From assembly GCA_018902385.1 (NCBI GenBank), contig JABSSW010000108.1, positions 1-26,324 of the forward strand: DNA of 26,324 nt, read 5' to 3'. The position numbers and the translations under genes are program-made. The notes under the pieces were generated by a model, which saw nothing but the letters and a program-made list of their open reading frames with translations, searched no databases and was not told the DNA's origin. This document shows positions 2,282 to 26,201 of the stretch, piece by piece; the first letter of the stretch is position 1; each line of letters opens with the position of its first letter. The stretch is from Physcia stellaris. Taxonomy: Eukaryota > Ascomycota > Lecanoromycetes > Caliciales > Physciaceae.

Positions 2282-2409
2282 TCTCAGTCTCGGAAATATT
2301 CGTTGTAGGTCTTTCCACCTCAACCCATCAACAGTTCCACGGCACGCGGGGGTCGAGTAGACCTTGACGCTGTCCTCCATCGTGGTTTCAGAGGAGCGTC
2401 GTCCGAATT

Positions 2410-4288
2410 TTACACCGTCAACAAACCGATGCTTTGGCGTTGCGCGTCTTGCATCATCTTCGACTCTCTTCGGTGTTTCTTTTTGAAGGATAAAAACACC
2501 CAACAGCCTACCGTCAGTAGTGTTAAAGGAATTGCTAGGGCAAGAAAAACCCAGAAGTCTTTCGCGATTTTGATTCTCGAAGCAGCCACTTCGAAGGTAA
2601 ATAGATTCATTCCTAACACTGTCTTGCCTTCGAGTGAGCAAAGGCACCGAGCTTACATTTGCTTAAATTCCAGGAGACTTACTGCAATGAAGGTTGCTGG
2701 TAGATATATCAGTGTCATGACGCCAACGACACGCACCGTAGCACTATCATCCACTGTTTCCCTGGTCAACCCTAGCATATGCTGATTCACAGCCATGGCC
2801 GTTGTTTGGCCTTTGTGGTTTAGTGCGTCTCCAAGCTACGGAAAAGCTTTTTAGTTACCTTGCAAAGGTCCAGACCGACGAACCAAGATCACTCACCAAG
2901 TGCATGATTCCTCCAATGCGATGTCTCAGTGTTTCTGCACTTGTAAGATTACCACGCAGACGGTCCAGCACGAGCGTCAGCCGCGCCTGGACAGCTATAG
3001 CAGTTGCATCGTCTTGCTGCGACGAAACGAAAGAATTATGGCAATCTTTCAACCAACCTGCGACACTCACAGAAGCATGTAGAGCCGCCGTCACCGGAAA
3101 CAACTTGTCCTCAAGATTACGAAGGCTCTGCAATGTAGAGAAGCTGAGCCGGTAGTCGGCGTTATCGTTCAGATCCATAGTCAATGCAGCATCTGCCTGT
3201 CGAATCATCAGACCCACCTTACCTACAATGTTTTCTTCGGACTTACAGCATCAGTAAAGGTCTCACTCAATTGACTCAGATACCAACGCCAATTCTCCAT
3301 GTACGATGAGAAAAGTAATAGGTGTACGATGGCTGGATTCAATCGCAGTTTGGCTGTGCTGTGCACATCGGATAACAATCTCTCTAGCCTTTTTTGGAAC
3401 ACAGATTCGGTTTTTGGATGCAATATTATCCAGAGATCGGTGCCTTCAGTTGTACGCTGGTGGTAAACCGTCGTCTGCCGCATCGACCAATTGTTACCTT
3501 GGGCTCGACCGTTTCTCTCGACATACTTGAAGGTGTACATCATCTCTTAAGTTTGCGTTGTCTTGTTAGCCTAGCTTTCACCAAGATTACAATTTTCATA
3601 CCGGATGGTCCATTTGCAGAGCTATTCGAACAGTGATACCCTGAACCGGCCTCGGAGGCTTGAGGGTCTATTGAAATGCCGCAATTAGCGATCCTTCAAC
3701 TTGAAAAGCACATTTTGAAAAGCTATATTGAAAATACGACTTTTGTTTTAGAACCGTATGAGAGAACACGAAGAGTTTGTTTTACAAATCAACGTACAAT
3801 TGCCGCAGCAGAAGAGATTTATCAGCAAATCTGGAGAGACATCATGGTATGTGAGAATTTTGCGCATGATTTCTTCAGTAACATTCAATGGTTGTAGCGA
3901 GTTTGCTTGGGCTATAGATATAACCCTGATGTCAGGTGCAGTAGAATGCAGTAGGTGATTGCTCAAGTCTTTCTCGCTCGAGAATTTGTTCTGGTAAAAT
4001 TTCATTTCCTCGTGGTCTTGGAAAGTCATCAATGTTAGCAGAATCTCACAAGATCGCGATTAGGGATCACGGACCTTGAACCTCGGAAATGTCGACGCCA
4101 ATTCGGCACCCTTTACCACAGAAAAGTCTCTCGGAGAAACTACTCAACTGTTGATCGAGTGCTTCGCCGTCTATGGCGCCTTGGTGGTAGTTCGACAGGT
4201 TCGTCGGATAGCGCTCCCAGCCCTCGAACGTCCTTGACTGTTTCATCACCATTTGTTTCTCTGACAGCAGTCCCATTATCGGCAGCAA
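2410..4288 (-). CDS. Fungal CorA-like membrane protein
   Basis: Seven exons join without any frame correction into 487 residues: 4288-4075, 4016-3798, 3667-3602, 3545-3247, 3196-2897, 2835-2683, 2622-2410. The N-terminal half has the features of the fungal CorA-like family: a WERYPTNL start region, a stretch ending in ILTYHDVSPDLL, then YVERNGRAQGNNWSMRQTTV ahead of a VYHQ strand. A helical region follows, then ETVDDSATVRVV leading into the first membrane helix (VGVMTLIYLPATFIATV). The GMN signature (LGMNLF) and a second helix (FWVFLALAIPLTLLTVGCWV) come next, with a basic tail. GMN between two C-terminal helices is the hallmark of CorA/Alr Mg2+ channels; transport by this fungal branch is not established. 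The intron at 3668-3797 (130 bp) is the least certain. The gene converges on the kinase, with 128 bp between the stop codons. Confidence 0.85.
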
Positions 4289-5830
4289 GGAAATTGAGGT
4301 CTAGCAAAATGAGAGAAAAGGTAGGAGAAGGAATAAGGTCATCATCTTGGTTTTCCGTGCTAGTTTAGTGCACTTTTCTGCCTCGATTCAGGCCACCATT
4401 CCTGCTTTATCAGGGCGTAAAAATTTATCTGAGCTTTGCCACGTTTGCGTCGAAGCCGATTGGACACGAAGAGAGTTTTAGAAGGTGTACGTACGTAAAG
4501 GCTGCATCTAACCGCGCTGTACTATGAGCAAGGGTTCCGATACGAGATTAGCACCATTATTGGCACAGGTTCGCGGACTGCCGATCTTACTGTGCCTTGC
4601 ATGCCCAACGCCTCCTCCCAATGTTTGCGTGGTACCAGAGTCCACGTACAAACCCTTTCTGGTATACGTTGATGGCTACACAGCTTTGCTGAGACCGCGA
4701 GGTGCCTTGGAAGATGCACTGGAGCTCGAAGGCTTGCAGTCCCGGCTCAAGGCGCCGAAACAAAGAGAAAGAAGTAAACGGGACCTGTAAACTCTCTCTA
4801 AAGCAGCGGACTAATGATCTTGTACACAATGTCTAGCTGCCTCACATCGGGTATGTAGTCGATGACATCCTCGAACGGTTGCTGCTAATACTCTATCCTT
4901 AGCGATTCATGCGGTACGGAAGCCTGAGCACTGTCTTCACACACCAAGGTACCATGCAGTAAGCAAAGCTTACGCAGGATTGAAAGCTTACCAAGTCGCC
5001 CGAAACGCCCGCCATCTTCTCTCCCCACAAGGAACAATTTTGCCACAAGGAACACATTCCACCGTAAGCTTTTCGGGGGGTTACTTAGTCAGAGAGAAAT
5101 TGCCGAGAGTGAGACGCCTAAATACTCTGAAGGCACCCAAAGAAGCCTCTCTCAAACTTATTTCGGCCTAGACGCTCCTTCTCTTTCCTAGGCTGGCTCT
5201 CAAGACCGGCGAGACCGGGACGTCGGCGTAAAAGAACTTGAAGACAACGACTGACCCCGTGATTGCTTCCCCAATCACCATCATACCTATAGAATACAGA
5301 AAATCTCCCAATATCATGCGACATGATCGTCACTGACGCACAATAATGTGACAGCCGCCATCTTCCTTTCTCTCTCCCGAACCCACACTCACGAGACCAC
5401 CATCACTCCGGTGGAGAAAGCTGTAGAATCCTTGGCATCGAAGAATTTTCGCCCTCCCCCGCGAACATCAAAAAGTTCCAACTTGATCAAAACAGAACAT
5501 TGTGTTTCAAGACTTAATTTCAATAAATTTATTGCACTTTTCTGATGATATGACGCTTTGATTGTATGAAATTTGACATAGTATTGAATGTGCTATAATT
5601 AATTGAAAAACAACGTTCGAAAGGGGATTTGAATACAAAAATTTAAGCTCAATTTAACGTTGAATAGTGCGATTTAGTGACAGAATTTCAGGGTTACGTC
5701 AGGGTTATCGCTAACAAAAAGCGGGAACTGCTGGGGGAGGGGGAAAGTTAAAAAATTTCAGCGCCAAGGATTCTACAGCGTATTGCACCTCGGTGAACAT
5801 AACCCTTAAACAACCTTCATCCCTGCAATC
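4289..5830. other. Intergenic region, no convincing gene
   Basis: This stretch separates the CorA-like start (4288) from the NLR 3' end (5831). It must hold the CorA-like promoter and the NLR 3' UTR. An 88-codon plus-strand frame at 4524-4790 and a 63-codon one at 4980-5171 show no motif I recognise, no plausible splice partners and no domain-like composition, so I do not call them. A 12-base direct repeat (CCACAAGGAACA) occurs at 5025-5036 and 5043-5054. The AT-rich part from about 5400 to 5800 is bounded by inverted repeats and is listed separately. Confidence 0.6.
5403..5796. repeat. Candidate miniature inverted-repeat element
   Basis: A perfect 17-base inverted repeat, GCTGTAGAATCCTTGGC at 5420-5436 and its reverse complement at 5763-5779, sits inside longer imperfect arms. 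The outer ends are TCAC (5403) and GTGA (5796). The inner parts carry matching C-rich and G-rich tracts (5452-5460 and 5733-5743), giving arms of about 58 bases. The roughly 270-base core is AT-rich and codes for nothing I recognise. This layout fits a MITE or other non-autonomous DNA transposon of about 394 bp. I see no clear target-site duplication, so the exact ends and the superfamily remain open. Confidence 0.5.
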
Positions 5831-8800
5831 TTAAACAAGATTCCTCACTTCATCCGCCCTCCTCCCCGCCTCCACAGTCTGCGGATGCTCCTTCCCCAAA
5901 GCATGCTCATACAACGTCTTTGCCTCCCTCAGCAGCGCTTCCGCTTCCACTCTCCTCTCCTCCATAGTCTCATAGATAGTAGCGAGACAATACTTACTAT
6001 CGCCTTCACTCTTCGCCACGCCTTCGCCACTAGCCTTCCAGCCCTCAATCGCGCGCTCGAATTTCGCTCCAGCGGCTGAGAAATTACGTTGTTTGAGATG
6101 TAGCAGGCCTTGATTGTGAAAGGTGGTCACAGTGAAAGGGTGAGCAGGCCCGACAGCGCCTTCGAGAGTGCGGGCTGCGCGGCTAAGATAGTGTCCTGCT
6201 TTCTCGTACTGAGCAGATTCGAGACAACATAGGCCGAGGTTGCAGATGATGATTTGCGTTTTCGTGTGGCCTGATCCATATTGCCTCTCGGTTCCGGCCA
6301 AGGCACGCAAAAGCAGGCGTTCCGCAGCCATGAAATCTCCTTTTAAGACTTCGAGTGTGCCAAGGTGATTGACGATCATAAGGGTTTTGCTAGCTTCGGG
6401 ACCGTCAGCTTTTTCACGACCTTCGAGGGCTTGCTTTAAGAGCGTTTCTGCCGTGGAGAGGCGGCCTTCCTTCATGTAAGCCACTGCGAGGCCGTTCTTT
6501 GTGCTTAAAGCGGACACGAACCAGGGTTCGAAGGAGCTGAAGTCGCCGGTAAGGGCGCCTTCGAGCTTTGTACCCGAGGCGTTGAGTTTGTCGTCTTGGG
6601 TCCAGTAGAGGACACCGAGGCGGATGATGTGGAGGTGTTCGTTGGGGTCTTTGATTGGGGGGGTCTCTTTCAGGTTGATAAGAATTTGCATGTATAGATT
6701 TTCGGCCTCGACCAGGTCGCCTCGGTCGCAGTACATGTTTGCTAGGACGTTGCGGATCTTGGGCGTGACTTCGTGATCGCCTCGCAAGGCACGTTCGATC
6801 AGGTACTTCGTTTCTTGGTACCTAAGCACATTAAAGCCTCAGATGTGAAATTATGTCGCGAGAAATGTAATCCTGAGTTGTTGCAAACAAGTTGACCGAA
6901 GCTTTTCACATCATTAAAACATGATATGTCTTATATTTCGTAAAAAGCCTCAAGACTGGTCAGTGGTGACAAAGCTCTGAAATGTACTTACCGGCCTAAG
7001 CGGCGGTAGAAGCTGCCGAAAGAGACCATTGCGTCCTGTAGCGTCTTGGAGACTTGATGCCCATTTGTATGCAGCATTTCATCTCCCGCGATGACAGCGT
7101 CCAGATGGCTTAGAGTTTCTCCCTTGTCACGAAGTGGCATCTCCTCTTCGTCGCCATTGTCGACGAAGAGACGGACGACATGGACGGCTTCTTCGGCATA
7201 TTCCTCTCGGACTTTGTTATCGACACGGAGTTTCAGCCACTCAGCGATAAGCGGGTGAAATGAAAAGCGGGCATCCGTTGCCTTTAGATCGATATTTGTC
7301 ACGAGCGAGACACTGAGGAGACGAACGATCGAGTCTTGATATTTTTCACTGTCCCATTTCGTACCGTCCGTGAAATAGTCGAGCCATTTTGGCCTACGAG
7401 CTTGCTTAGCGTAAAGGCTAAAGAGCCCTTCACTAATGTTTCGAGTATTTACGAATGCTCCCAGAGTCAATAAATGGACCAATGAATCACGTTCGTCATG
7501 GGTGACTTGTAGCTGCTCGAAAGACATTTCCCATGTAGTGAATACAGATAAGGGCTTGTCGCGCTCCTCTAGCCTGGTCTTTGAATACTCCCAATGTGTC
7601 GGAGTGTGCTTCAGTATGGCCGATCTGCGTTTTGCGAAGACCTCAGCGAACGATTTCAACGGTAGATCTCGAGCTCCGATATATGTCGCAGCCTGATCGA
7701 TCGCAAGGGCTAGACCTCCGAGGATTTCGACAATCTGGCGGGCGTCCTCCACGTTTTCCTCAGTTCGTTCATGTCCAGATTGAAGTAGTAGCAGTTCCAC
7801 ACCCTCCTATGGCGAGTATATGTCAGCTTTCCTTTTCATCCTACTGAACCGCGGCTGAAGTCTATGCGTCTAGCAATTCTCTCACTCAAGCGTGTCTTAG
7901 CAACAAGTGAAGAGCACCTCACTAGGGAAAAGGCGCTCCAACGTATGCTCACCTCTGCAGTCATAGCGCCAACCTCGACACCCTTACCCAGTCTCTTCGC
8001 ATCCGTATGGCGACTGTTGAAGATGATCTTGGAACGATGCGGAAGATAATCTCGAATGGTGGGGAACTCGGCAGGCCTGTCATAATTATCAAATATCATC
8101 AAGACCGGATCTGACAGATCCTCGAACTTCTTCAATACGAACGTGCGGGCAGCTTCTGGGTTCGGAAATTTTGAGCCCGGTGCCAAATTCAAGGCAATGC
8201 CTTCGAAGCTTCGATTGACCGTCCCCATAGAAGTCGCATCAACCCAGAAGATGGAATATTCTGATTGTTCTGCTCTGCAGTACTCAAGCGACAACTGTGT
8301 CTTTCCCTGACCTGCAATATATCAGTTGCAGTACTGAATCGGTTCCATTTCTGTTCTAGGAGCCTTACCTCCCATTCCAACCAAGACGATGACTGATGCG
8401 CCCTCTTTGAAGAACTTTTGTATACGATGGAGCAAGTACTTCCGTCCAACAAAGCGGTTGACCCTCATTGCAGGGACCTCGTAGAATTTCGACTTCGTCG
8501 CCACAGCGGGCAGACTTTGGCCTGACGAAGCCATGACTGTAAGATAACTGAAATAGAGCGTCAAGGTTGACTTGTACGTCTCAAGAATACGTTAAATTTC
8601 AACGATATTCTTCTCCACCTTGATGCTTTTGATGGCCCTCTTCCCTTTATCAAAAACGAGTCATCCGGTAAGGGCAGGCACTCTCCCAAACGCGCCTCGA
8701 GCACTTTGGTCAGTCTTACAAAGCCTTGAACGGTCTTCAATAAAGACTTTTGCTGTTCAGTTGAGATCTTCTCAATCTCGCAAGCAGTCTTGATCTCTTC

Positions 8801-9364: not shown

Positions 9365-10805
9365 ATGTCAGAAGAGTGGTGGAAAGAAGCTGTGATCAAT
9401 CAGCTAAAGATTGAAACAACACACTCACCACAAAGAGTCAACTGTTTCGTTTCCCTAACATCATCATCCCCAGATCTACTGACAAAACATCCAATGAGTA
9501 CTACCTCAGCCTATTCACTCCCGACCAGCCAGATCTGAACTGGGCAAACCCTGATGTCCGCGTCGCTGTGCATGATGTGATGCGCTTCTGGCTGGACAAG
9601 GGCGCGTGCGGGTATCGGATGGATGTCATAAATCTGATCAGTAAAGATCAACGCTTCCCGGATGCTGATGAAACGATTGTGAATGCCACTTCTGGTGACG
9701 CGGCCGGCCATACAGGCGGAAGCGCGAAATACCAACCTGGGTGGAAGTGGTATGTCAATGGCCCGCGTTTGCATGAGTATCTTCGGGAGCTGAAGAAGGA
9801 GGTTTTGGATCCGTATAAGGCGATTACGGTAGGTGAGATGCCTCACGTTAGTGATATAGATGAGATCATAAAGACAGTGGGGCAAAAGGATGGCGAGTTG
9901 AACATGATTTTCATCTTCGATGTCGTCGATTTGGACAATGTGCCCGGGCAAGGGCGGATGGCGTTGCGTAATTGGGAAGTGCGGGATCTGGTGAAGCCAA
10001 TTGTGAAATGGCAGACTCTGATGATTGAGCGAGAGGGATGGAACAGTGTGTTTATCGAAAATCACGACAATCCAAGATCGTTGTCGAGGTTTTGCGATGA
10101 TTCTGATGAGTGGAGGGAGAAGGGTGCAAAGCTGCTAGCGCTCATGCAAACGACGCTCAGTGGGACCATATTTGTGTATCAGGGGGAGGAGATTGGAATG
10201 AGGAATATGCCGAAGGACTGGGATGTAGCGGAGTACAAGGATATTGAGTCTGTCAACTATTGGAAGAAGAGTCTCGAATTGCATGGATTTGACAAGGACG
10301 CTCTGAAGAAGGCAAGAGAAGTATTGGACACAAAGGCACGAGATCATACGAGGACTCCGATGCAATGGGACGCCTCGCCTAACGCCGGCTTTTGTAGCGA
10401 GAATGTTAAGCCATGGATGCGGGTGATGGACGATTTCAAGACTGTCAACACCGACGTTCAGACGAGATTCAGCAGTGAAAATGATCTAAGTGTATTGCAG
10501 TATTGGAAGCGAAGGCTGGCGGATCGGAAGAAGCACGCTGATGCCTTTGTTCATGGCGAGTATCAGACGATTGATAACGCTGACAATGGAAGTGTATTTG
10601 CATACCTAAGAGCCGGGAAGGAAAGCGGTCAATGGCTGATCGTGCTGAATTTCAGCGGCAATACCTTAGCGTGGAGCATGCCAGAGGAAGTGAAGGTGAA
10701 GGACTGGATGGCAGGAACTTATTTGAAGGAAAACCTGACAAACCGACTAAGGGCGTCGTGGCGCTGCGGCCATGGGAGGGCTTATTAGGCATGTGCTCAG
10801 ACTGA
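9365..10805 (+). pseudogene. GH13 alpha-glucosidase (maltase), internally deleted and frameshifted
   Basis: The start matches fungal maltases: ATG at 9365 gives MSEEWWKEAVINQ, close to the conserved WWKEAVVYQIYP opening. Homology then stops and resumes at TDKTSNEYYLSLFTPDQPDL (from 9478). About 150 residues are missing, including the NGDGxGD loop and the DLVVNHTS region of the (beta/alpha)8 barrel. The two parts are in different frames. Bases 9442-9473 look like the 3' end of an intron (CCCTAAC branch, pyrimidines, CCCCAG), so the deletion probably removed an exon and part of an intron. The rest retains the nucleophile Asp (YRMDVINLI), the acid Glu (VGEMPHVSD) and the third acid (IENHDNPRS). 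Near the end, one missing A in 10730-10733 shifts the frame; with it the expected C-terminus (KPTKGVVALRPWEGLLG) and a stop at 10803-10805 appear. Most likely catalytically dead. Confidence 0.85.
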
Positions 10806-11349
10806 TTCTGATGGACACCCAAGACCCAAGCCGCAGAAGGAAGAGTCCATAGGCGGCGCCAGCGTCGCCCAAGAGGCATAGAGCAGCCCAGGGAGACGCC
10901 GAAAGGGAAAGATAGTATGTGGTCTCAAAAAGAAGAGACGAAAGCTGCAGAAACGAGAACTCGGGGGGAAGGTCGTCTATATAGGCGTGCCAAGCCCCAG
11001 CTTATTCGGGCCGTTGTCGGAATATATGCCTGCCTTGGCTTTTGGAGAATCGATCATCTAGCTTCCTTATTTGGTTTTCCTATCACTCATGAGCGCTGTA
11101 TTCTATAGAACCGCATTTGACCGAGCCAAGCCTTGTTCGTGCTACCCGTCTTATGAATTTGAGTCTTCACCTTAGCTTTCCGTGCTCTCGGGGAGCTATG
11201 AGCTTGTTATAAAGACAAAGGTCAAAGGCTTCCTTTGCAAAACCTCCCCCAGACCTGTCTGCGGATTCCTGACATCTCATCATCTCAGCTGCTCGTATTC
11301 CATTCTGATCGTCTGATGTTGCGCTGTTGGAATCGGTTCAGTTGAATCT
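10806..11349. other. Tail-to-tail intergenic region
   Basis: This lies between the stop of the alpha-glucosidase remnant and the stop of LYS12, so it should hold only 3' UTRs and terminators. A 63-codon plus-strand frame at 10917-11108 has no recognisable motif. I see no RNA gene or repeat here. Confidence 0.6.
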
Positions 11350-12486
<1,137 letters not shown>

Positions 12487-13123
12487 TGAGCTGGATGAGG
12501 GGAGTGTTAGACGATAGGGGTTACTTCCACGTCAAGCGAATTGACGGCCGACTTCAGCATACGAGCGTGGTGCTGACTGCTGACAGGCCGAGGAGAAAAA
12601 TATCTCATCACCGGATTTTACGGATTTTAGGGTAAATGCCTTCGAGACGAGCGCGGAAAGCTCCCGCGGATTCTGTGTAAAGTAGGTTTCATCTTTTCAG
12701 GATCGTCTTCAGATACATTTTCCTATCCTGATGACCAACGAGATCGATTGTACGCGCCATCTGAGCATAAGTCACGATATCAATGTACTCATGATATGCT
12801 CCAGCCTCCTCTGTGAGGAGGAGTCTGAGAGTATTAAGACACGAACGCGTCGTCCAGGTCTTCAGAATTACAACGGTACACGCAAGCAGATAATCTAGAG
12901 ATCCACCTGATTAGAAGTCACAAATTGGACACTATCACCTGGATTCTGGTTATAAGTGGTAAGGTCCTCTCAAACGTAGTTTACGGATGACAGGGTACCC
13001 GCATCTCATTCATGATCTCGGAAACGGGAATTTGTCTTGCCAGAGATAGAACCAGGTTCGTAAGGTAAGGTAAGAAGCTCGATTGATCTGTTCCCAGGGC
13101 AAAGAAATACACATGGCAGATCC
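12487..13123. other. LYS12 promoter and Cys-array gene 3' region
   Basis: This stretch lies upstream of the LYS12 start (12486, minus) and downstream of the stop of the cysteine-array gene (13124). It contains a perfect 7-base hairpin, CCTCCTC-tgt-GAGGAGG, at 12805-12821. I see no convincing reading frame, tRNA or repeat. Confidence 0.5.
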
Positions 13124-13701
13124 TCACCAACCACCGACATTCTTTGCTCCCTTCAAGCCTTTGACATTATAGCAATTCCTGCTTTTTCATCAGCACCTCT
13201 CCCGTTCTAGATGATCTTGTCTCTCTTCAAATTATCGCCAGGATAAAAATTTTCCTCCTCGCATGTCGGCTTCACCGTATATCTATTTGTTGGTTCCATT
13301 GAATGAAAACAGAACTTACATGCAGTCCTCGCAGTCCGTACAACTAGCACAGCTTCGCGCATCGTCAGCGGAACGCATGTAATTAAACATAGCTATTTTG
13401 ACTACTTACTTTTTGCAAGACTCGCATCCCACGCAATCCGAGCAATTCGCGCAGTTACTAGCTCCAGATATCAGCGCATTGCAATCCATACGATAAAAGC
13501 CTCCAGCGACTGAATGGACCAAGATAGATTGTCTTCGTGGTTTTAAGTCTGTCAGGGAAATAAGGTCTCTTACTAGCAATCTACGCAATTCCAGCAGTTC
13601 TTGTTCCCGTCTCCGGTAGTCTTGGAGCAATTGCGATTTCCTTGGCGGTCATACGGAGAGCTGAAGCAGCCGAAAAGCGTTCGTGAGAGGGAGGATAACA
13701 T
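13124..13701 (-). CDS. Small protein with cysteine at every third residue (87 aa)
   Basis: Four exons give 87 residues: 13701-13574, 13457-13410, 13352-13320, 13178-13124. Introns are 116, 57 and 141 bp, all with GTAAG donors, CTGAY-type branch sites and AG acceptors, and all in phase 2. From residue 36 to 72 cysteine recurs every third residue, 13 times without a break, nearly always after Asn, Asp, Ser or Gly (for example NCANCSDCVGCESC in exon 2). After Cys72 the same register carries Val75, Leu78, Ala81, Val84 and Trp87, the last residue. The period is kept exactly across all three splice junctions, which is strong support for the gene model. There is no signal peptide; the first 24 residues (MLSSLSRTLFGCFSSPYDRQ...) may be membrane-interacting. 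I do not recognise the family. Metal binding, or a disulfide- or thiol-stacked solenoid, are possibilities only. If exon 4 is not used, the protein ends after Met70. Confidence 0.75.
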
Positions 13702-15259
13702 AGCGGGAAATGTCAGCTGATTAAGAACCCAAGGTTGTAAATGAACAAGGAAAAGAAGACACCGTCGACGACAGAAGTAATCTCAGCAGCGAAAAGTTGG
13801 GGGATAGGATGGATTCCATCAGCCTCAAACCTCAGCTGAATCTTACGTCAGACCCCGCATGACCATTCCTTGCCCGAAGTATTGTGGTACCTCATACCAG
13901 TCGGCGTGGAACTGTTAGATGTTGAAGAGTCGATATCTCTTGCCTAAAAAAGGGTATCAAGTAAAGCTTTTCGGGCTCTACTACTGCACCGCCATCTCCA
14001 CAAGACATCGCCTATACCATTTCCAGACCTCCAAACAGCTTCAGCCGTCTCAACATACTCTCTCTCATCACACTCCCATGGGAGCTAGAGCTACTTGCAC
14101 ATAGTCACGAAAATCCCATCTCCTGACCCCACTCATATAACGGCTCATCACCTGATCACCCATATGATGTCTCCGCGAGTCTTCAAAGATTACAAAAGCA
14201 AATGTCCCTCTCATCAGCAAGCAGCTGTGTCCCAAGCTCTTGATCTGTCCATCTTCCACTTTTCATTCAGTCATTTCCGCATCTTCTGTATATACCACAG
14301 ACACAAATTCTCGACGAAGTTGTTAGACTCAATAGTAGTACAGGAATATTCCGTCGATTTAGCCATGACTTTCTACTGCCCCCCTCCCTTCCTTCCCTTA
14401 TTTCCTCCATGTACCTAAGCCTCGTGTCTCCAACGCCAATAATTAAACCTCCATTTCACAAGAAAGATAAAAAGCAAAAACAAGCGCTTTTACAGTCCCG
14501 TCCCAGGAAGATAAGATATCGCAAAGAAGTAAAAGTAAAGTAAACCCAGCACCTTCATATCCAAGCAAAAACAACACCAACACAAAAACAGCCGCTATCT
14601 CAAACCCATATTCAAAAATCCGTACAAAACCCAAAAAGCATGACGGAATCCCCCATAACAGTAAAAGTATATAGATTTGCATACATTTGCAAACGGAAGA
14701 TCGAGAATTCCAATATCCCTCCCATGGGCTATCAGATAGAAACCGATAACCAAAACCCGAGCGTAGATGCGTATATAAGATCACTCATCCCCTCCCCTAC
14801 CCCTTCCCTCCCCAAACCCCCAATATCGAACACCTGCAAATGTCATGAGGGATACTGGACTGAAGTAACTTTGGGGTAGGATAGCTCGAGGTAAAAAAAG
14901 AGCTGAGGCCCAACGACATCGATAGGGGATAAGCGCCGAGCGAAGGAAAACAAGTTGTGTAATTTGAAATGTCCCAGTAATAGATGAGAATGAAGTAGGA
15001 GGGAAAAGGGGGACTGTTGAAGAAGGGTATCGAATTATCTATCTACTTCGAGTCGTGCTGCTGTTGTCTATGTACGAAACCGAATATGTCTGTCATTTCA
15101 ATCGTGACGGATTTGCCGCTGCCATGGCTCTATCTGCCGTTCTTCCTTGTTGCTTTTCTCATCCCTCATCTCTCATTCTGTTTCCTTTTCATTCCAGTTT
15201 CCTCATCTACACAACCCTCAAAACCACCATTCCTTCCCGTCTCCTCCCACATCCTCCCA
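13702..15259. other. Intergenic region, no convincing gene
   Basis: This 1.56 kb holds the promoter of the cysteine-array gene and the 3' UTR of the helicase. It has long pyrimidine-rich tracts on the plus strand (14380-14410, 14790-14820, 15130-15260). A 113-codon minus-strand frame at 14443-14784 looks hydrophobic, but this follows from the base composition, and it lacks recognisable motifs. A 107-codon plus-strand frame at 14095-14418 is equally unsupported. Confidence 0.55.
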
Positions 15260-18200
15260 CTAAGCCCACATCGCGAAGAACTTCTCATTGAACTCCCTCT
15301 GCAACAGCGTCATCGCCTTATACACCTTCAAAAACCCCTCCTCCATCTCATCCACGGTCCTGGCTCCCACTTCCGCGCCCGCTCCATCCCCATCATCACC
15401 ACCGCCATCCGCCTCATCCTCATCGCTCTCATCCCAATCATCCTTGACCTTCTTCTTGACCACCGGCTTCGTCGTCGCAGTATTCAAGCTCGCCTCCGCA
15501 ATCGTCGCTCCCCGCTCCGCAAGCGTAGAAGCAACACTCGCATCATCCTCACTCCCAACGACCGTATCCGCCGCAAACAGGTCGTCTTGCAAAGTATTGC
15601 TCTGATCGCCCACGCCCGCCAACATATCCATACTGACATCCGCCTCGGGCAGTTTCAGGAAGCTGGCGAGACTGGTCACGATGGTGGCCAGCACCATGCT
15701 GAAATCGTTGAGCAGGAACCAGACGTCCGCGCGCTTGATGCCGTTGGCTGTTTCCAAGGGTTCGACGTTGCCGTGCATGAAAAATCGTAGAGGTAGGCGT
15801 TGAGCGGGATCTTGATTCGTCGGGGTAGACGTCCAGATGGGGGATGACGGCTTCTTCCAGGAAGACGCCGCCGCGCGCGGTGCGGCAGAGGTCGGGGATG
15901 CTGCTGAATGAATCGCCGTGGCCGGAGAGGGCGACAAATGCGGAGCGGACTTTTGGTGTGGGGAGCGTCGGGAGCGAGGGGATGTTGAGGGTGGAGTTGT
16001 TGTCGCCAAAGGATAGGCCGGTTAGGGGGAGCTTCGTGTCTGGTTCAGTAATATGCTGGTTGACGAAAGTTTCGACATAGGCAGTGAAAGTCTCGAGAGT
16101 TTCTTTGTTGTGTCGACTGAGGATCTTGGAGGCTCGTGGGGGAAGTTCGGGGAGGAAGACGATGGAGGATGAGGGCTTGACGACGACTTCGAGATATTCT
16201 TGATCTGCTTCCCGACAGGGCCGACGGCCGAAAAGGTGAGCCATGACGATCATCAGTGTGCGGAGGACGCTGGATTGCTTCTCATTGATATCTGCACAAA
16301 GCTCATGGAAATAGCCTTCTTTGATGAGAGCATTTAGGGCGAAGCTAGAGTTCTCCGTGTAGTACAAATGAGATGTTAGGCCCGCGAAATTGATCGGTGC
16401 TCCTTGGGAGCTGAGCAAGCTTTGACGTCGAAGATACTCAATTGAGAAACGGAGATGATGAAGAACCTGATCTCGAAAAGCCGATCCGTCAAGGTATAAG
16501 CGCGGTTGTGACAACAGCGAATTAATTGCCTTGATGGCGTATGGAGCAGCGTCCGACTCATGTAAGAGCATGAACAGTCTAAGTACCAGCGTTGTAGTGA
16601 TTGGAAAGTGTCCGTTAAGATCTGGGAGCCTGCTGCTCAATAGACGGCAGACTTTTTCCTTGGAGATGTTCTGGAATACAACGTTCCCGAGTAGGTCAAA
16701 GCCACGACGTCCAGCTCGACCAGCTGCTTGGCGGAAATTGAGGGCTGTTAAGAAGATACTATCACCCGAAAATACCACGGTTGCGCAGGGCATGTTGATA
16801 CCAAGGCGAGCGTTCCGGTGGCGATCACTACCCTCAAGAAACCTCCACGGAATAGCATTTCCACCACTTGGCGATATTTTCGGTTCATGCCAGCATGATG
16901 GACACCAATACCTCGAGATAATGCATCTAGTAACCAGGAGGGCAAGTCCCTTCTTCTGAGTTGGTGGAACCAGGTGGACAGGTCTGCTTTGTCTGCCTTG
17001 TGCTTTGCAGCAAAATGGAATCCGTCAATGGGGTCTTCAGGATTGAAAGAAACCCATGGATCTACATCCGAACTGGCTGCATCCTGTATCTGGTCGGCCT
17101 TACTCGTTGGGTCGTCTTCATCGTTCTTCGCCTTCTTCTTGGCCGCGGCTTTTGGATTTTTCTTTGCTGCCATCTTAGCCTTGTTTTTCTTCCATTGCTC
17201 CCACTGCTCTAGCTTGGTCTTCCAGACTGAACTCCCCCTCTTTCCATCGCTCCTCAGCAGCTACCAGCTGGTCTAGAACAGAATGGCAGATCACTTCACA
17301 TTTGTGCCGATCGTAGTTGAAGAATATTGCAGGTAACGCATTTCGCTCTTGTAGCTTGCACAACAATGGAAGGGTCGTATCTTGAAGGCTCTCCGGATCA
17401 ACAGTAGTTGAGCTCTCGCTATCACCATCTGTACCGTGTTGCTTGGAGGACTGAAACTCCTCGGCGGATGAATCCATGGACTTGCTAAGGTCTTCGACAA
17501 CTTTGTCAAAGGAGAAGCGTCATCATCCATCCACTTTCGGAGAAGTTCTTTCAGATTTTTCTCCCAGACAATGATGTCAGCCTTTCTGATGATTTGCGCT
17601 ACCGCTTTCGCTGGGTCGAGCTCTGGGGAGACCGGAAAATCCTTGGTCTGATGGTGTGTCATTGCCTGCCATAGAGATAGACAATCTCTGGCTTCTAGGC
17701 TCAGGTCGTTCGGAATTCCCCTTGACTTGTTGACCAGACTAGCTACGGGGTGCATGAAAGCCAACCCTGCAAGACCATCGAGTCCCAACGTCGCAAAGGA
17801 CCCTCGATCAGTAAGACCATTGAACTGAAATTTCTTTGGTGGCGTATAGATGAATTTTCGTAAGTCAGAGTAACGGTGCGGGTGTGTAATCATGGTAAGC
17901 TCATTACCTATCGACTCTTGCGTAGACTTAAGCCACGAGTTGAATTGTTCTGGGTTGCCGACCGTAGCTGACAGGGCGATGATAGGGCATGGTGCAAGCA
18001 GAAGTAGCTGTTCCCACACGACACCGTCTTCGGCTTGGCCAATACTGTGAATCTCGTCGAAGATGATGTACTTCAGTCGAGGACTCCATGACCTTGCATT
18101 GCTGGGTGATAATAACATGATCTGCAGTATATGAGGCACAGTGACCAATACCTGACATCCGTTGGGGTTGTTGATCCGATAGTCTCTTGTGTGAATGGCC

Positions 18201-21089
18201 CAGACTGATTTATTGTATTGGTAGGTTTTCTTGAAACGAGCCTAATGCTCCATTAGCATCAATTCAACAGACAAAAATGGCGGTCATGTTCCTACCTGTA
18301 TCTCTGCCGCTATCTGGTTGACCAGCGCTTTCGTGGGTGCGACATATACAAGTACGCTATCGTCGTCAGCGCGAAGAATCCGCTCCATGGCATAGAAAGA
18401 TATGAAAGTTTTCCCAGCGCTAGTGGGTGCCACAACAAAAATGCTCTTATCGGCGTCGAGTTCATCTAGCACCTTTCTCTGCCACCCATCAGGCTCGAAT
18501 GGTACTCGAGGGTCTGGTGCGGAGTCGAGGTTCCGGTCCATGTAAGGACCACAATGGAGCAACTGGAATTCCTTTGGATTTGATGCTAGTGGCAGCTTTG
18601 GTATATTCGTTAATGATATGCTTGGGTCAAAAGATAATTTCCGATCGTACTCCACTGTGGGAAAGGAGACTGGTGGCAGGCCAACGGATGATGCAATCTG
18701 CTTTGCTAAATCGATGATTTTCTTCGTCAAACCGCTGGCCAGGGGTAATTTTCGTAGAGAGTCCCAGACCATGGACGCGACACCAAATAGATGCTCTTCA
18801 TGCTGATTTTTCTTTTGTCCGAAGCTTTGCTCGACTCTTTATAGATTGCAATGAGCACACAAATCTTATAAAACTCGACTTCAGCCTCCACAGCTTTACG
18901 CTTGGAACTTGCAGGATCATTCGAATAGCTCCTGGCTTTGGCATATCTTGACGCTGGATGCGTCTCGGAGTCAAAGATTTTGCGAACAGTCTCCCAAGCC
19001 TTGAAAGTCTTTTCTGTTACATCGTCTTCTTTGGCAGCTTTACTTGCAGCAATGTTGCTCAACATGGCTTGTTTGCCAACATTCTTCTTGTTTGATCCTG
19101 CCTTGCTTCCTGGGTTCTTGTTGCCCTTCGCTTTACTTTCATTTTCTTTGTTCGCTTCGAGCATTTTGGTAGTGGCCTTTTTCGCTTTGCCAACCGTGAT
19201 AACTTCTGGATCCAAAATCTTACCGGCAGAGTTTGTCAAACTCGCTGCATAAGAGAACATTTCAGCCATAAAAACTGGTTTCGCCGCAAGGCACGAGACT
19301 TTTCTCGGCCAGACTGCTCCCTTGTAGGCCTTATTATCCAGCTTGCGCTTGGCATTATGCCAATGGGTGACTTCCTGAAAGATTCGAGCTGACTCAGGTC
19401 GGGGAGGCCGATTCCCAGCGATAGATATCTGAATCGACGCTAGATGCTTATCAAAAACTGGACTCGTGAACGGCAATATCGAGGCTGCACTAGAAGAAAA
19501 AGGGATCTCAGACTGTTGAACCTTCGGATCGTTGGGATTAGAAGGCAAGCCCATATCCGAGACGTCGACCTGACCACAATCTAATTTCTCTAAGGCTTGA
19601 GTAAGACGTGAAAAAGCTTGAGGTAAGTCGTGGCTCGGACATGACTGTGTTGAATATCGCCTTCAGCGATCCGAGAGTGACAATGAACAGACGACCATCT
19701 AAGATGTCAACAACATCGCATGTGACTGAGTTCGACTTCATGGTCTGTCCCCAGCGCGCGGTTTTAACTATTTTGCTTGCCTCTCGTGAGAAACCGCAAG
19801 AAAGTCCTCTATGAATGCACGCTGTTCAGGCTTGGTGGGATGCAGGTGCCGAGCAGAGGCTCATTTCTCGTGCCAGGACCATATGCAGTAAGAAAGCTAA
19901 AACGGTAAGTCTATCGACGGATTTGGCCTTCAGAAGGGCTGCGAGTGTCAGAATCCCCAGGTAGCTACGCTCTGTCAGAATGTCGGTCTCTCCATTTTGA
20001 AGACTGTGTCCTTGGTTGGCCGACAAGACCTTGTTTGATAGGAAATTCGATGTCCCATTCTCCGTTGGCTTATCTAGCGTAAGCCCAAGCTTGGAAAGAC
20101 TAGTGTCAACGGTGTCAGGCAATTCAACCTGGTTATTACCGTTCTGTGTTTCTGTGGCCTTGGAGGACAGTCCAGTCAGGCTTCTGGCTCTCCTTGAGCC
20201 TTCAACAACCGTGGTTACGACCTACTCAGCAATCATTAGCTGAAGTAGTAAGAGATTCAATTGAAGTGGGTTGTTTACCTTCGTGTCCTGCCATTCCACT
20301 CCGTTGATAAGAGCAACGTTGTAACCTTGAATTATCAAGTAGCATATCATCGCACGGAAGCCTAACTTCCTCGAATGCTCTTGGGTTTCGACATTGGCTC
20401 TATCTTTCTCGGAAAGATTTTGTATGCCGAAATCTTTCGATATCGGGACAGCGTTGGCACCGTCGTGGGCCATGACAAAGTAAACGCCTGATGCTTTGAG
20501 AAAAAATCAAAGAATCTCTGGCTCCGTACTGACGAGAACACATGCAACTCGATAGAGGGGTGGATCTTGGGAAGGTTGGCCTGCAGATGGCGAAGGATGA
20601 CCGATCGTGCCAGTAAGTACTTCGGTCGGTTTACCCTACTGATGTTGCGAGGTATGCATAGGCTCGTGCTGGTCAAAAAGACAATGTGCAAGTTGCACTT
20701 TCTTTGCACGAGGCCTTGTATGAAGTATTCCACAGCGTATGCTGCATGTAATAATTGAAATCCATCTGTGAGCTGTTAGATCCACTTGGGCTTTCTAAGG
20801 CCAGCCTTGTAGCCACAAGAAACATCGAAAGGTCCACCAGACGTCGGTATTATTCCATACTGTGGGGAGACACGTACCACCAAAATCTAGTCTAGGATCG
20901 TTCAGACAGTGAAGCAGAAGAGAATCTCCTCGACGAGAAATAGCTCTTGACCTGCGTAATCCCCCACGAGATCTACTCTTCGTGATGACAAAGATCCATA
21001 CCTAAATATATGTGAACACTTGAGCTCTTTCGGATGATCAGAATGTTCTTTTACCATTCCAGAATTTTATCTCCTGGAGGCTTCCCCAT
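15260..21089 (-). CDS. DDX60-like DExH-box RNA helicase (Ski2-like), frame-corrected at about 11 sites
   Basis: About 1850 residues. The start [12 protein letters not shown] joins across an intron (21002-21054) to [20 protein letters not shown], typical of the DDX60 N-terminus. The middle carries [20 protein letters not shown]. Helicase motifs follow: [10 protein letters not shown] (Q-type), [10 protein letters not shown] (motif I), APTKALVNQ (Ia), IIFDEIH (II), ALSATVGNP (III), [14 protein letters not shown] (IV-V), ATGTLAL...INMP, and [12 protein letters not shown] (VI). The C-terminus [10 protein letters not shown] is family-typical. Other introns: 20766-20877, 20222-20278, 18242-18295. 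The frame must shift by one base near 20925-20931, 20501-20506, 19840-19858, 19771-19774, 19608-19622, 18807-18811, 17500-17520, 17222-17235, 16801-16802, 15808-15818 and 15780-15784; about half are homopolymers, mostly one base short. Human DDX60 is an antiviral RNA-sensing factor. The role of fungal members is not established; cytosolic RNA surveillance is plausible. Confidence 0.92.
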
Positions 21090-21775
21090 GATGGCGGGAG
21101 TGATTCAATTCTGTCGATGCTCTGTGGTCTGAAGCCTTCTGTTCTGAAGTTCCAGCGGCTTCAAGATAATGTAAGATAGGGAAAAAGGTAAGAAGAGGGT
21201 AAGATTTTAGAAGAGCGAGAATCAGTAATTTGTTTGTGGCATTCGGTTAGTCGTAGTCAGGATATCACGAAAGCAATCTAAGTCGATGGAACCTGTCACA
21301 CCACACGCTATGCAATGCCTAACACACATATACAATTCGTTAGTGATATGGAAATGGAATCTATGCAACGTGAACGGACAAAGTGTGTTGATGGAGTGAG
21401 TTGTGATTTTCCAATTCTGCGTGAAGCTTTTGAGGCTTGGCGCAAGCCATGGGAGCCTCACTGCTTTCACGTATGAGTATCTATCACTATTGCAAGTTCA
21501 ACGGCGAATATTCTATGATAGAGACAAAAGGTATTCTGTGTTTGTCGTCTAATGCTGACAATTTATACTACTGTGTTCCTTGCGCTTTGAGAGCAGAGAA
21601 AGCCATTGTTTCATAGATAGTCGAACTTTCCGTAGTCAAGTTTGAATCGCACACTCATGCCGTGAAAGCTCTCTATACCATAATTTCGTCGAGCACATGT
21701 GAAATTATGTGCAAAAAATCACGCCTCCAACGTCCAATCGCTCGCTCATGAAGAAGACAAAAAGTTCACAATGTT
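21090..21775. other. Helicase promoter region
   Basis: This lies upstream of the helicase start and downstream of the stop of the membrane-protein gene. An 82-codon minus-strand frame at 21222-21470 has no recognisable motif and stops well short of the helicase start. I see no repeats or RNA genes. Confidence 0.5.
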
Positions 21776-23572
21776 TCATCTCCGTTCCCGCGCCATATCG
21801 CTGTAGGCTTCGACCGGAGTAGCAGGGACGCTGTTAGCCGGAGTCGTGGCTATAACTTCGATGGCAGGCACTGTTCTGAGAGGCGGCAATTGTGGCCCGG
21901 TGCCTCTGTCCGCGATCGGGGAAGTGTAAGGGGGCGCTCGCCCGCACGGTGCTGAGTATGCTCCTCGTACCTAGGTGGTTCTGCTGTTGGCCGACCCAGA
22001 CGATCCAGTGGCGGAGAATTGGGGTCGTCAGTGCTAGGTGTTGCCACAGGGGATCACTGCCGCTTCGTTCTCCATGCGTCGATGTTTGAGGAGTGTCTTG
22101 TGCTTCTGAATTGAGGCTGAGAGCCGAATCTGCGGAAGGAGCACGATGGTGTTGAGGGAGGGGTGGAAAGTTTTGCGTTTGAAAAGACCGCTACCTCGAC
22201 GTGAAGACGCTGCTGATCGGTTCGTTCCACCCATGCTAGCAGCTGAATCGAGGAGTGGTCGATGGTCGGACTCGACACTGTCAGCTCGAATCCTTGAGCC
22301 ATCATGTCGAGCAAGTCCGAGGAAGCGTAACTTTACGCTGCTCACACGGCGCCTCGACTAGCCGTTCGCAGCGTATGCTCAGCGATAAGTGTGCTTGAGC
22401 GTGGTTCACCAAGGCTTCCTGTGCTGGGGTTAGCTTCACTTCCCAGCTTCGGCTCGCGCCCGGGCTTGACTTTTGTAACCGTAACTGGTTCCAAGCGGGC
22501 CCAGTCGCCAGCTTCTCTCGCTGCCGCTCGCTCGCGCCTTCGCTCCTCGCGGTCATTGATCTCTCTGCGTCGAGCTTGACGAATCTGATAGAGGGCTTCC
22601 ATATCCGCTTCTCGGCGAGCCTCTTTCGTCGTCGGCCGTTTCTGGGTACTCAATGACAGTGTCTACACCAGCCCGCTCACCTTCACGAGCAATGACGTTC
22701 CGGGAAGGTAAAGGGACGGTCGATACGCTGGAGTGTCATGATGCTGCGCACAGAGGTATTGCGATCAACACCGTTGGTCGTTGCAGCCATCTCCGTGGAT
22801 GATACAGTGGGTAGGTCGGGTTCATTGATGGAGGTTGTGTAAGACGTATTGCGATCAGATAGCGAGGTATGGGTCTTTCGCTTGAACATCCGGCCATACT
22901 TGGTTCCAGGTTTCCACGAACGCCAAAGGGACTTCAGGAAGGGCGTCGGGATATATCTGGGTTCGGGATGGGTATATCTCAGGCTCCGGATGTAGAAGAA
23001 GATCAGACCCAGGAGGAAGAAGGAAGCAACGATGACCACGACAATCTGCGGTGGACTATCAGCTTGAAATTCAATATAGAGTCATGGCGCATACAATGGA
23101 GACATTTATTATTAGCAGCGGGCTCATTGCTGCTGCTGCCAGTATTACCGTGGTTGCCGTTGGGAGGCGGGTCCGTTCCCTGGCAGATGCATGCATCGTG
23201 AAGATCCAAGCGTGGAGGGAATCCACTGTGCAATACGATCCCTCGAGCGGTAAATTGCACGTGAAGGCCGGTGAAGTTGATAGGTAGAGGCACTCTTGTC
23301 CAAATACCAGCCGGAAGATTGATTCCGACAAGTGGTTTCAGAGCCAGTGCTCTGTCAAAGACAAGTTTCGCAGGAAACCCAAAATGTCTGATCCATGCGC
23401 TTGACGAGCAGGAGTATTGCAGCGCTGACAGATGAACAGTGGGCGGCCTCGACGGAAATGGTTCGTAGGATTCCGAAACGGGAGAGGCTGACGATAGGAA
23501 GATGAGCACCACCACAAGACTCCAATCAAAAGCCTGCCAACATCTCCTACAACCGAAACTCATAGGTGTCAT
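21776..23572 (-). CDS. Single-pass membrane protein with signal peptide and charged cytosolic tail (frameshifted)
   Basis: The start at 23572 gives a signal peptide with core [19 protein letters not shown]. An ectodomain of about 140 residues follows, with several cysteines and an N-glycosylation site (NFT), which I do not recognise. A short intron near 23043-23088 probably precedes the membrane helix [20 protein letters not shown]; its acceptor is ambiguous. The cytosolic tail has [20 protein letters not shown], a charged coil ([20 protein letters not shown]), then [15 protein letters not shown] and LLDSAASM, which recur in an uncharacterised Pezizomycotina family. It ends [20 protein letters not shown]...ARERR with TGA at 21776-21778. 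One-base corrections are needed near 22690-22710, 22625-22635, 22325-22345, between about 22055 and 22200, at 22043-22050 (four C where five fit) and at 21930-21934 (five where six fit). Probably a plasma-membrane or wall-stress-type sensor, but this is inference. Confidence 0.6.
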
Positions 23573-24639
23573 AGACGGGATAAAAGTGAAAGAATAAAAT
23601 TAATTATCATGAGGTGTTTGCTCTCGCCAAACCATCAGGATTCTGGAGGCGCGATAAACTTGTTTCATGGTCACCTTGGCGCTAATTGGTCGGCGCCAAT
23701 TACAGGTCCAGGAACATGCGGTCAGTCCTTATTTTAGGCATCTTCAGCAACGATATTCTATCAGGATCGGCCTTGCAAGGCTCTCTCGAGGAGTGAGCTG
23801 AGTGTTTGGGCAATTAAAAATTCACAGCCAGCTCCTTCATCATTTATCATGGAGTAGAGCGTGTTTAGGAAGCCCTTTGTTGTGCACGTTTTTGTAAGGC
23901 AGATTCATAGATCTCGTCCATAGAATCGTACCTACACAGTTTCGCGATATACCTTAATCGTAACCAGACACTCCGGTCACAAACGTCTAGGTAATTAGAT
24001 GCTAGGAAGACAGAATAAGGTTGCCACGACCACAAGGAATGTCTCTTGATATTTGGAAAGACGTTTTTGTTGGATTGACTTATCAAATCCCGTGCCTTTC
24101 CCGTCACTCGCGCCTATTGCCTCATTACCCAAAAGAGGTATGATACCCAAGATTTCAGACCGGCCCATCAGTAAACTTTCTCGTCCCGTGCCATAATAAT
24201 CCTAAAGTCGAAGTTGATCGGAGAGCCAGCGACGATTGTTGGGTGGATCTTTGGAACAATGGACATTACAGGCCAATTGAGTTACTCGCGTCAAGGTTCG
24301 GCCGACTTTGGTTCTGGCTGTCGGCCTATTTTGAGCTGCGCAGATATACCAGCACGATTCGTGCTCGTCTCCCATGGTGGATGTGTAGTTCCTGAGAGGA
24401 TGTAACCATGATTGGATGTGTATTGTCTTAGCAAGGCTGTAAAGCAATGTTGATAAGGCATTGACGGAGAAGGCGGAGAAGCATTGAGATCTAAAATTCG
24501 ACAGTGTGAAGAAGCACAACACCTGGATTGGGTCATAGTGACTGTGAAGTCCGGTGGCAATGTTTTGCGCGATGCATGCTTCTTGGGATGTTGTACCTGC
24601 CCAACTAATTGTAGAACACTGTCTCATTTCGAATGGTCG
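23573..24639. other. Intergenic region with CCAAT palindrome; one doubtful frame
   Basis: This holds the promoter of the membrane-protein gene and the 3' UTR of the F-box gene. At 23676-23702, two inverted repeats overlap: TTGGCGC/GCGCCAA and TAATTGG/CCAATTA, giving a CCAAT box on each strand about 110 bases before the start at 23572. An 80-codon minus-strand frame at 23865-24107 has ordinary protein-like composition, but no ATG start, no neighbour exon and no known motif, so I leave it uncalled. Confidence 0.5.
23676..23702. promoter_or_regulatory. Overlapping palindrome with two opposed CCAAT boxes
   Basis: TAATTGG (23683-23689) and CCAATTA (23696-23702) form perfect arms around TCGGCG. 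TTGGCGC (23676-23682) and GCGCCAA (23693-23699) form a second perfect pair. CCAAT is the binding site of the fungal HAP/CBC complex. The position about 110 bases upstream of the membrane-protein start fits a promoter element. Confidence 0.4.
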
Positions 24640-26201
24640 TTATACATTTAGATAGTCAGCAAGGTCAATTCGCTTGTAGAACGAAACGTGACCGAACTCC
24701 TCCCAGTATTGCGCCAAGGTGTCGTGTGATATCATAATCAGCTGCGAAACAACGTATCGATCTGGAAATCAATCAGCATACAAAGATTGGAGGTCTCAAG
24801 ATGGAACCAATACCATTTCGAAATCCTCGATTCGCGCAGTGCCCCAGACTTCGCACTACCCTCGCGCCTTTGAACATCTGCTCGGTTGCAACCCGTATAA
24901 AACCCTTAGGTCCAATATCCTCGGCGATCCAAGTGTACTCGCCTTTAGGAACATTGGGATCTCCAGTGAGCTTGATAGCCTCCAAGCGACCTTTACAGGA
25001 AGGATCGTCACCGAATTCCAGAAGTTCTGCTGGGGTATCAATGACAGGAGGTTGGCCAATAGCTTGTTCGGATGACGACAATGCTTCGTCCATCTGTTGA
25101 GTTTCTGCAGTATCGGTGTCGAAATGTTGGTCAGGGAAATCGTCTGAACCCTCTGGCGACCGCCAGGTACTTGGTGAGATCGGTTTAACATTTGGGTCAA
25201 CGTTTTTCTGCAGCACAACCAAAACTCGCAACCGTGGCCGGAATAATCGCCGACCCAGAGACCCTGCCATGGCTTGTCTTTGGTAGGCGTATAACTCTCC
25301 TGGAGGAGCGTACTGAATGTCATGATATTATCGCCTATCCTGACACCTAGTTGCGCTTCCATGCCGCCAAAGTCGAGCCATTTGCGTAGGCGGAAGGTCT
25401 GGTCGCTAGCTTCTTCCAGCGTTCTGGGCTTGTGTCCGACCTCGTAAAACTTCGAACTGCTCTCGCGGCGCACCCGATGTTTCGCTGGCAGGATGGCTGG
25501 GGGCCAAAGGGTCATGCTCCGGTGCTGTGAATACTCTGGAATAGCTTGGCAGAGAGAAAGCGCTGAGAGGGCGCGGAGCGATCCTGTCTGCATCTTCCTT
25601 TCCATTCGCACGTCATTAGCATTTGGATGGCCTGAGGGTCAAGCTTGATCACAGGATCGTCGAGCCAGAGCTGTACGAGAGGGTTAAAGGTATGGATGAT
25701 GACGTCCTCGTTCCACGACCAAGACTCGAAGGTATGTTTGCCATGCTCAGCGACAAGTCGGTAGCCTTCAATGCAAGCTCGGCGGGGATCGAACCGGGCG
25801 ACAATGACATTGCCGGTCATGGTGTTACCACCAACTGCGCGGTCGGCGAACCATATCTTGTGTCGTGTAAGAAACCAATAGGGGTGATGGGCGAGGTAAA
25901 GCTCTCGCCAGCTTTGACATGGGTTTGGCGATTCAAGTCTGGTCGGCACGTTCTCTTGGACTAATCGGGCCCACAGTAAATCATTGTTACAATGAGTGTG
26001 TAAGTATTGACATGTTTGACTAAGCCTTGCTAACGAGCGAGGTGGAAGGAAACCCAGAATGTGGATTACGATTTCAGCAGGGAGGAGCTGGAATGGAGAG
26101 ATTGAAAGATGGTTGATACTCATGGCGACTGGTGAGATGGGGAGAGAGGATGTGGCAAAGAAAGATAGGAAGGATCTAGAGAGCTTTAAGACTGCGTCCA
26201 T
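24640..26201 (-). CDS. F-box protein with FBXO31-like C-terminal domain (frameshifted)
   Basis: About 500 residues. The F-box is clear (residues ~35-80): FQLLPAEIVIHILGFLPPRS, then LARLSQTCQYLHTHCNNDLL. It would bind Skp1 in an SCF ubiquitin ligase. The substrate side has HHPYWFLTRHKIWFADRA, IVARFDPRRACIEGYRLVAE, GLWVGDYSGHGCEF, GRLEAIKLTGDPNVPKGEYT and FIRVATEQMFKGARVVRSLG. This order resembles the substrate-binding part of FBXO31 relatives. An intron at 24762-24813 joins GFRN to DRYVVSQLIMISHD; the end is YWEEFGHVSFYKRI with TAA at 24642-24640. Two one-base corrections are needed: near 25620-25632, and at 25221-25224, where four T on the coding strand must be five. The start at 26201 is the first ATG; an internal Met (MSINHLSISPF) is an alternative. 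The substrate is unknown. Confidence 0.88.

Follow-up and report, generated by a model that had tools for sequence, protein, structure and literature searches.

The locus examined here raises the question of whether a run of cysteines recurring at every third residue belongs to a real gene, and what kind of structure such a protein would form. It lies in a window (the whole stretch of DNA analysed, 26,324 nucleotides) of the genome of Physcia stellaris, a lichen-forming ascomycete of the Lecanoromycetes. The draft genome is given as 46.57 Mb in 184 scaffolds in PMC7513301, and the genome searched in this study comprised 43.97 Mb in 147 contigs.

In-silico splicing of four exons on the minus strand (Table 1) yielded 264 nt, coding for 87 amino acids and a stop, and reproduced the gene proposed in the initial annotation, with the frame and the three introns kept in other genomic copies. 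Inspection by eye showed that all three introns started with GTAAG, ended with AG, carried a CTGAY branch-like site near the acceptor and split codons in phase 2. An in-frame stop was located 27 codons upstream of the ATG, with no further ATG between. The protein contained 15 Cys among its 87 residues, at positions 12 and 25 and then at every third residue from 36 to 72. The strictness of this register was confirmed by shuffling, as the longest period-3 run was 13 Cys in the protein and never exceeded 8 in 200,000 shuffles of the same 87 residues. The residue before the array Cys was N, D, G or S in all cases (13/13), and the continuation of the register past the cysteines to the C-terminus, also proposed earlier, was observed as described. 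On hydrophobicity and charge, no long hydrophobic stretch was found at the N-terminus.

Table 1 Features of the cysteine-array gene (positions in the window)
Feature	Position	Strand	Description
Exon 1	13574..13701	-	ATG at 13701-13699, N-terminal extension, array start GNRNC..GDGNKNC
Intron 1	13458..13573	-	116 nt, GTAAG..TAG; 123 and 124 nt in the other two copies
Exon 2	13410..13457	-	48 nt, phase 2 at both ends, Cys45-57
Intron 2	13353..13409	-	57 nt, same length in 3/3 copies
Exon 3	13320..13352	-	33 nt, phase 2 at both ends, Cys60-69
Intron 3	13179..13319	-	141 nt; 142 and 141 nt in the other copies
Exon 4	13124..13178	-	Cys72, C-terminal cap, stop TGA at 13126-13124
Cys array	13172..13602	-	Residues 34-72: 13 triplets of the form x-[NDGS]-C; all three introns fall within it
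C-terminal cap	13127..13171	-	Residues 73-87; V75, L78, A81, V84 and W87 in three-residue register
N-terminal extension	13603..13701	-	Residues 1-33; first acidic residue at 18

Comparison within the genome showed that a segmental duplication takes in most of the window and involves two other contigs (C113 and C18) at 92.7-96.1% identity. C113 aligned with window positions 1-21413, where it ends, in blocks of 95.7% and 92.7% identity, and C18 (31-53 kb) aligned with window positions 1-5402 and 11001-26292 in blocks of 94.7-96.1% identity; window 5.4-11.0 kb had no counterpart within the 40 kb of C18 compared. The Cys-array gene was present on both contigs, with the 264-nt frame, the 13 Cys and the three introns intact. 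The window and C18 copies differed in 7 of 87 codons, all silent (dN 0, dS 0.153, Nei-Gojobori), and the window and C113 copies in 11 of 87 codons, 9 of them silent (dN 0.014, dS 0.201), the remaining two being adjacent codons 17 and 18 in the N-terminal extension (Y17D/D18T); exon 1 was otherwise conserved in all three copies. The C113 copy also had insertions upstream of the ATG. Exon differences amounted to 7/264 bases (C18) and 12/264 bases (C113), and intron differences to 30/312 and 50/311 aligned bases, respectively, in addition to indels. Exon change that is almost only silent, next to diverging introns, is the pattern of a coding sequence under purifying selection.

Other genes were observed along the window. 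A TPR ORF (5831-8294, minus strand; TPR_12, E 3.8e-29) lies beside ORFs that resemble NLR-type ATPases by eye and match no Pfam family, and these TPR and NLR-like ORFs sit in the stretch lacking a C18 counterpart. An alpha-amylase domain (9568-10788, plus strand), a fragment of an isocitrate/isopropylmalate dehydrogenase (11755-12114, minus strand), a DEAD helicase match slightly below its cut-off (17294-18148, minus strand) and an F-box protein (25512-26201, minus strand) were also present.

The window protein used alone as a query returned no homologue; since no protein of the database had three 5-residue words in common with it, it has apparently escaped annotation. In the PDB sequence search the only chains to come up were those of CBP/p300-type acetyltransferases and methylcytosine dioxygenases, none with E better than 0.02, no Pfam family was found at E up to 10, and the only NCBIfam match was unrelated (E 5.4). 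A profile of the fungal arrays found 60 proteins at E <= 1e-3 among 546 candidates, of which 33 were inspected as sequences. The best match was P0001, a protein from another assembly, with 36 of 62 residues identical to the window protein in a gapless alignment. A diverged paralogue on contig C5 gave 72 residues when spliced by hand at CGCAT/GTACGT...ATAG/GCACC. The window protein, P0001 and the C5 protein had all 13 array Cys in common, with no gap across residues 31-86, and also shared the GN-x-NC array start and the cap residues G77 and N83. The initial annotation had named the lack of any homologue with the three-residue period as a refutation; homologues that preserve it were found. The second exon of the C5 gene was contained, with its period intact, in P0010, P0020 and P0028, where a gene caller had apparently read through the C5-type intron.

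These comparisons bear on the possibility that there is no gene here, the array having arisen by chance or repeat expansion and the splices having been picked by hand to join it. The spliced model is drawn from genomic sequence, and the database search for common words was empty, which would fit an artefact; silent-site divergence among three copies whose splice sites are conserved, together with relatives that align without gaps over the array, makes an artefact highly improbable. The Cys-array gene is very probably a real gene.

A second paralogue, on contig C14 (G000:C14:609386-610540, plus strand), formed a 384-residue frame with two Cys arrays and was 100% identical over its length to the NCBI hypothetical protein G7Y79_00014g037400 of Physcia stellaris. 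This frame as a query found 38 proteins among 3646 candidates (16 of the 38 inspected as sequences), with P0062 and P0063 close to it. In P0069 of Xylariaceae sp. FL1651, an MMR_HSR1 GTPase domain (PF01926, 25.9 bits, cut-off 21.9) was followed by a C-terminal array of near-perfect 12-residue units with a tail resembling that of the C5 protein. Long Cys-triplet arrays in P0072 and P0085 stood beside a precomputed PF04564 label, with PF00536/PF07647 also in P0085, and the array of P0078 stood beside a PF01343 label, also precomputed; we take PF04564 to be the U-box and PF01343 to be the S49 peptidase. A scan of genome contigs with P0003 gave 16 stretches at 2 loci; a long Cys array was carried by L152 (Helicobacter), and a regular-expression look at L153 showed no run of five Cys triplets. 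In the P. stellaris genome, two weak matches to the phage profile phrog_15341, at C12:279861 and C33:176424, looked like low-complexity or degenerate sequence and were not counted as family members. P0075 had no match in plasmids by tblastn. In the parts of the literature covered by searches for the pattern or the fold, no description of a fungal Cys-triplet array was found; the cysteine repeats of PMC7379824, as presented there, are longer and form a different module.

Arrays of the same kind are known from phages. Residues 35-77 of the window protein matched the phrog_15341 profile (E 2.1e-9), which was also matched by P0001, P0003, P0063, P0069, P0072 and the C5 protein. The match of the window protein rests largely on the Cys pattern, and therefore reflects a common pattern more than descent. 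The initial annotation had been aware of no named family with this pattern; this held for Pfam and did not hold for phrog_15341, nor for an array protein of Vibrio phage 1.238 annotated as "insect antifreeze protein" (InterPro IPR016133). A pattern scan of viral contigs for eight (RRY TGY NNN) units gave at least 120 matches, and those listed included many genuine-looking arrays with recurring end regions as well as many monotonous (GCS)n-like runs resembling antisense or low-complexity frames. Seven array proteins chosen from the viral contigs all matched phrog_15341 (7/7) and none reached a Pfam cut-off (0/7). P0068 was matched by 17 Campylobacter phage records, an L082 phage protein matched one Flavobacterium phage record by tblastn, and the C14 array and P0071 had no tblastn match in phages. 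Ten of 24 listed ORFs neighbouring phage arrays were scanned and 6 matched a PHROG (helicase, tail lysin or transglycosylase, ParB, PAPS reductase, DNA methyltransferase and primase), with no common genomic context emerging from these ten.

Several further features were seen on the phage side. At L073:7691-8560, a PAPS-reductase-like gene adjoins a phage Cys-array gene. Among the matches listed, the array proteins of L125, L073, L106, L082 and others end, by eye, in a WHxC-TTHCRAGW region; the one protein of this set that was scanned, from L082, matched phrog_31265, whose annotated function is unknown. The matches in L061, L072, L103, L127 and L138 read MNQFQQELQAL...GGCGGC and presumably resemble heterocycloanthracin-type precursors.

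The periodicity of the arrays was analysed through the outward residue x of each triplet. In 13 arrays from 10 proteins, fungal or presumed fungal by similarity, 76 of 175 pairs of triplets four apart had the same x, where 33.0 would be expected (z 9.8), as did 45 of 123 pairs eight apart, where 21.9 would be expected (z 6.0); z was <= 1.0 at the other lags from 1 to 7. A thinned subset with fewer close relatives (9 arrays, 7 proteins) gave z 8.4 at lag four. The period can be read directly in the arrays of P0069 (KGC SNC TGC HSC KNC SNC TNC NSC KNC SNS TNC NDC...) and P0001 (RNC TNC SNC YDC RNC TNC VNC RGC RNC TNC TDC IDC RNC), and the C14 arrays repeat TNC DDC TNC TxC. A larger set of 93 arrays, including phage ones, was kept after removal of arrays in which a single triplet prevailed, distinct triplets were few or N/D/G/S were scarce; it showed lag-four z values of 4.5 (x) and 5.7 (triplet), and a lag-1 excess (z 5.6 for n, 4.8 for triplet) that tandem duplication would explain. 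The repeat unit in the fungal relatives is, on this sequence evidence, four triplets or 12 residues. The window protein by itself gave p 0.37 for x at lag 4, and we infer its place in the 12-residue scheme from the gapless alignment with P0001 and not from a periodicity of its own.

Structure prediction of P0001 gave a solenoid, with the array predicted confidently in the best model out of five, and its best structural match was the Tenebrio antifreeze beta-helix with 12 residues per turn; the model of P0003 gave no useful structural match. The 12-residue repeat of the relatives, together with the match of the P0001 model, indicates that three residues are the spacing of inward side chains and not a turn, so the helix of three residues per turn considered in the initial annotation was abandoned, while its suggestion of a thiol-lined solenoid was supported by the prediction for this relative. 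The window gene would accordingly encode a small, capped beta-solenoid of about 4.5 turns with a thiol core, acting as a rigid module, for which a redox or metal role would be secondary and ice binding less likely; we put the probability of this reading at roughly 0.66. Such a protein would be a version of the fold known from beetle antifreeze proteins, now with a thiol core, in a sequence family already known in phages.

Under the thiol-core solenoid, the array would wind into a tight tube in which each turn has four short sides, each bearing one inward residue, the four triplets per turn being carried over from the P0001 prediction. The third residue of each triplet, Cys, would point inward, N, D, G or S would stand at the bends and x would face outward. 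The 4.5 or so turns would correspond to 18 triplets with the cap included, where V75, L78, A81, V84 and W87 would take the places of Cys in the last turns and close the end of the tube. Cys would serve primarily as a small core residue, with the core thiols probably free in a reducing compartment and forming disulfides when oxidised. The tube may work as a short rigid display or binding module, elsewhere placed beside GTPase, U-box or hydrophobic-anchor parts; the occurrence of the module alone, beside a GTPase, beside a U-box and before a hydrophobic segment suggests such an element and not a single set activity. As a plausible second role, the core could switch in response to redox state or soft metals.

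With so many thiols, the protein could instead be metallothionein-like, its regular spacing stacking clusters of Cu(I), Zn(II) or other soft metals along the rod. This would agree with the 15 Cys in 87 residues, with the use of Physcia species as metal and pollution bioindicators mentioned in PMC7513301, and with the presence of Cys at 98.2% of 1905 register positions in the 93 arrays, which had been chosen for high Cys. Within the same high-Cys selection, however, the in-register replacements were S, L, F, R, N, A, G and V, mostly small or hydrophobic, and H, D and E occurred at none of the 1905 positions (0/1905), which speaks more for Cys as a packing residue than for an obligatory coordination of metal. 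No metallothionein model was among the Pfam or NCBIfam matches, the register runs on as V, L, A, V and W, and the predicted fold of P0001 suggests a closed core, so that a metallothionein-like role is considered unlikely.

A ribosomal peptide precursor, in which Cys would be cyclised to thiazoles as in heterocycloanthracin, is a further reading. For heterocycloanthracin with its Cys-Xaa-Xaa repeats, cyclisation of Cys to thiazole was proposed (Haft 2009, PMC2674419), and the precursor described there is 88 residues long, begins with an N-terminal leader and has 13 Cys, most of them separated by two residues. Against this reading, the genome gave no YcaO family match (0) in an intron-blind six-frame search in which 5 of 14 control genomes matched, NCBIfam gave no bacteriocin match, and P0001 and the C5 paralogue keep both the length of the array and the cap. 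A thiazole peptide would be hardly credible here.

The resemblance to beetle proteins also invites the reading of an ice-binding or freeze/desiccation-protection protein of the lichen, working as beetle antifreeze does. The solved fold closest to the P0001 model is the Tenebrio antifreeze protein, the Vibrio phage relative carries its "insect antifreeze protein" annotation, the C14 arrays are rich in Thr adjoining Cys, and the C14 paralogue (P0061) has a precomputed label of PF02420 (Pfam short name AFP), which we take to be the insect antifreeze repeat. The Pfam scan of P0061 in this study listed no PF02420 despite that label, no family was assigned to the window protein (0), and no PF02420 match occurred in the genome at E up to 1 (0). 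The window array has no TCT or TxT, contains one Thr and places N, D, G or S before Cys, its protein lacks a long hydrophobic N-terminal stretch as judged by hydrophobicity, and P0069 joins the array to a GTPase domain; an ice-binding role of the window protein is thus less likely, and improbable on the whole. A Coccidioides gene is listed in a table of PMC3401177 with the insect antifreeze repeat domain label.

Hints of localisation came from the C14 paralogue, which has no acidic residue before position 85 and 11 K/R ahead of its array; towards the C-terminus a segment of 19 residues starting at 351 is borderline hydrophobic (mean 1.58). R-x-Y-N stands directly before the C14 array and in the same place in P0063, P0064, P0065 and P0066. 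These features would fit a mitochondrial presequence cleaved at an R-3 site; the longer N-termini of P0064 and P0065, with 6 and 5 acidic residues, count against a mitochondrial presequence. A broader and rather doubtful proposal is that of a mobile beta-helix, an all-Cys form of the beetle antifreeze fold, common to phages, bacteria and fungi. It would occur as a stand-alone protein, as a C-terminal domain of GTPase or U-box proteins and, in lichen fungi, as a hydrophobically anchored double rod imported into mitochondria; its thiol ladder would be a stiff element switchable by redox or metal.

One repeat rule, an inward residue at every third position with a unit of 12 in the relatives, connects the beetle antifreeze fold with a lichen fungus and a phage family. 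Sequences of this type may escape gene finders and low-complexity filters, and the rule offers them a structure that can be tested. Should the core prove to be an unbroken stack of thiols, the protein would have an architecture of uncommon redox and metal chemistry and would provide a rigid scaffold that can be tuned.

Compared with known systems, the phage members of phrog_15341 (annotated function unknown) have the same x-[NDGS]-C array as the window protein but, by eye among the matches listed, different N- and C-terminal regions and often longer arrays. Pentapeptide-repeat-like beta-helices such as MfpA and the SV2 luminal domain have five residues per side, as against the three proposed for the Cys array. 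Heterocycloanthracin-type precursors, as far as they are described in the source cited above, are similar in length (about 88 residues) and in their 13 Cys mostly in three-residue spacing, and are thought to need a cyclodehydratase, whereas the window genome has no YcaO match. The hyperactive antifreeze proteins of Tenebrio, Dendroides and Dorcus are presented in PMC8038014 with disulfides and the consensus TCTxSxNCxxAx. The window protein differs from them in having introns, no TCT rank and no PF02420 match, and in its Cys at every third position where the beetle register is C-S-C-A. The beetle proteins (PDB 1EZG, 1L1I) have a 12-residue unit, as do the fungal relatives of the window protein, and their consensus, as read here, places the inward residue at positions 2, 5, 8 and 11, with NC at 7-8 as in the arrays.
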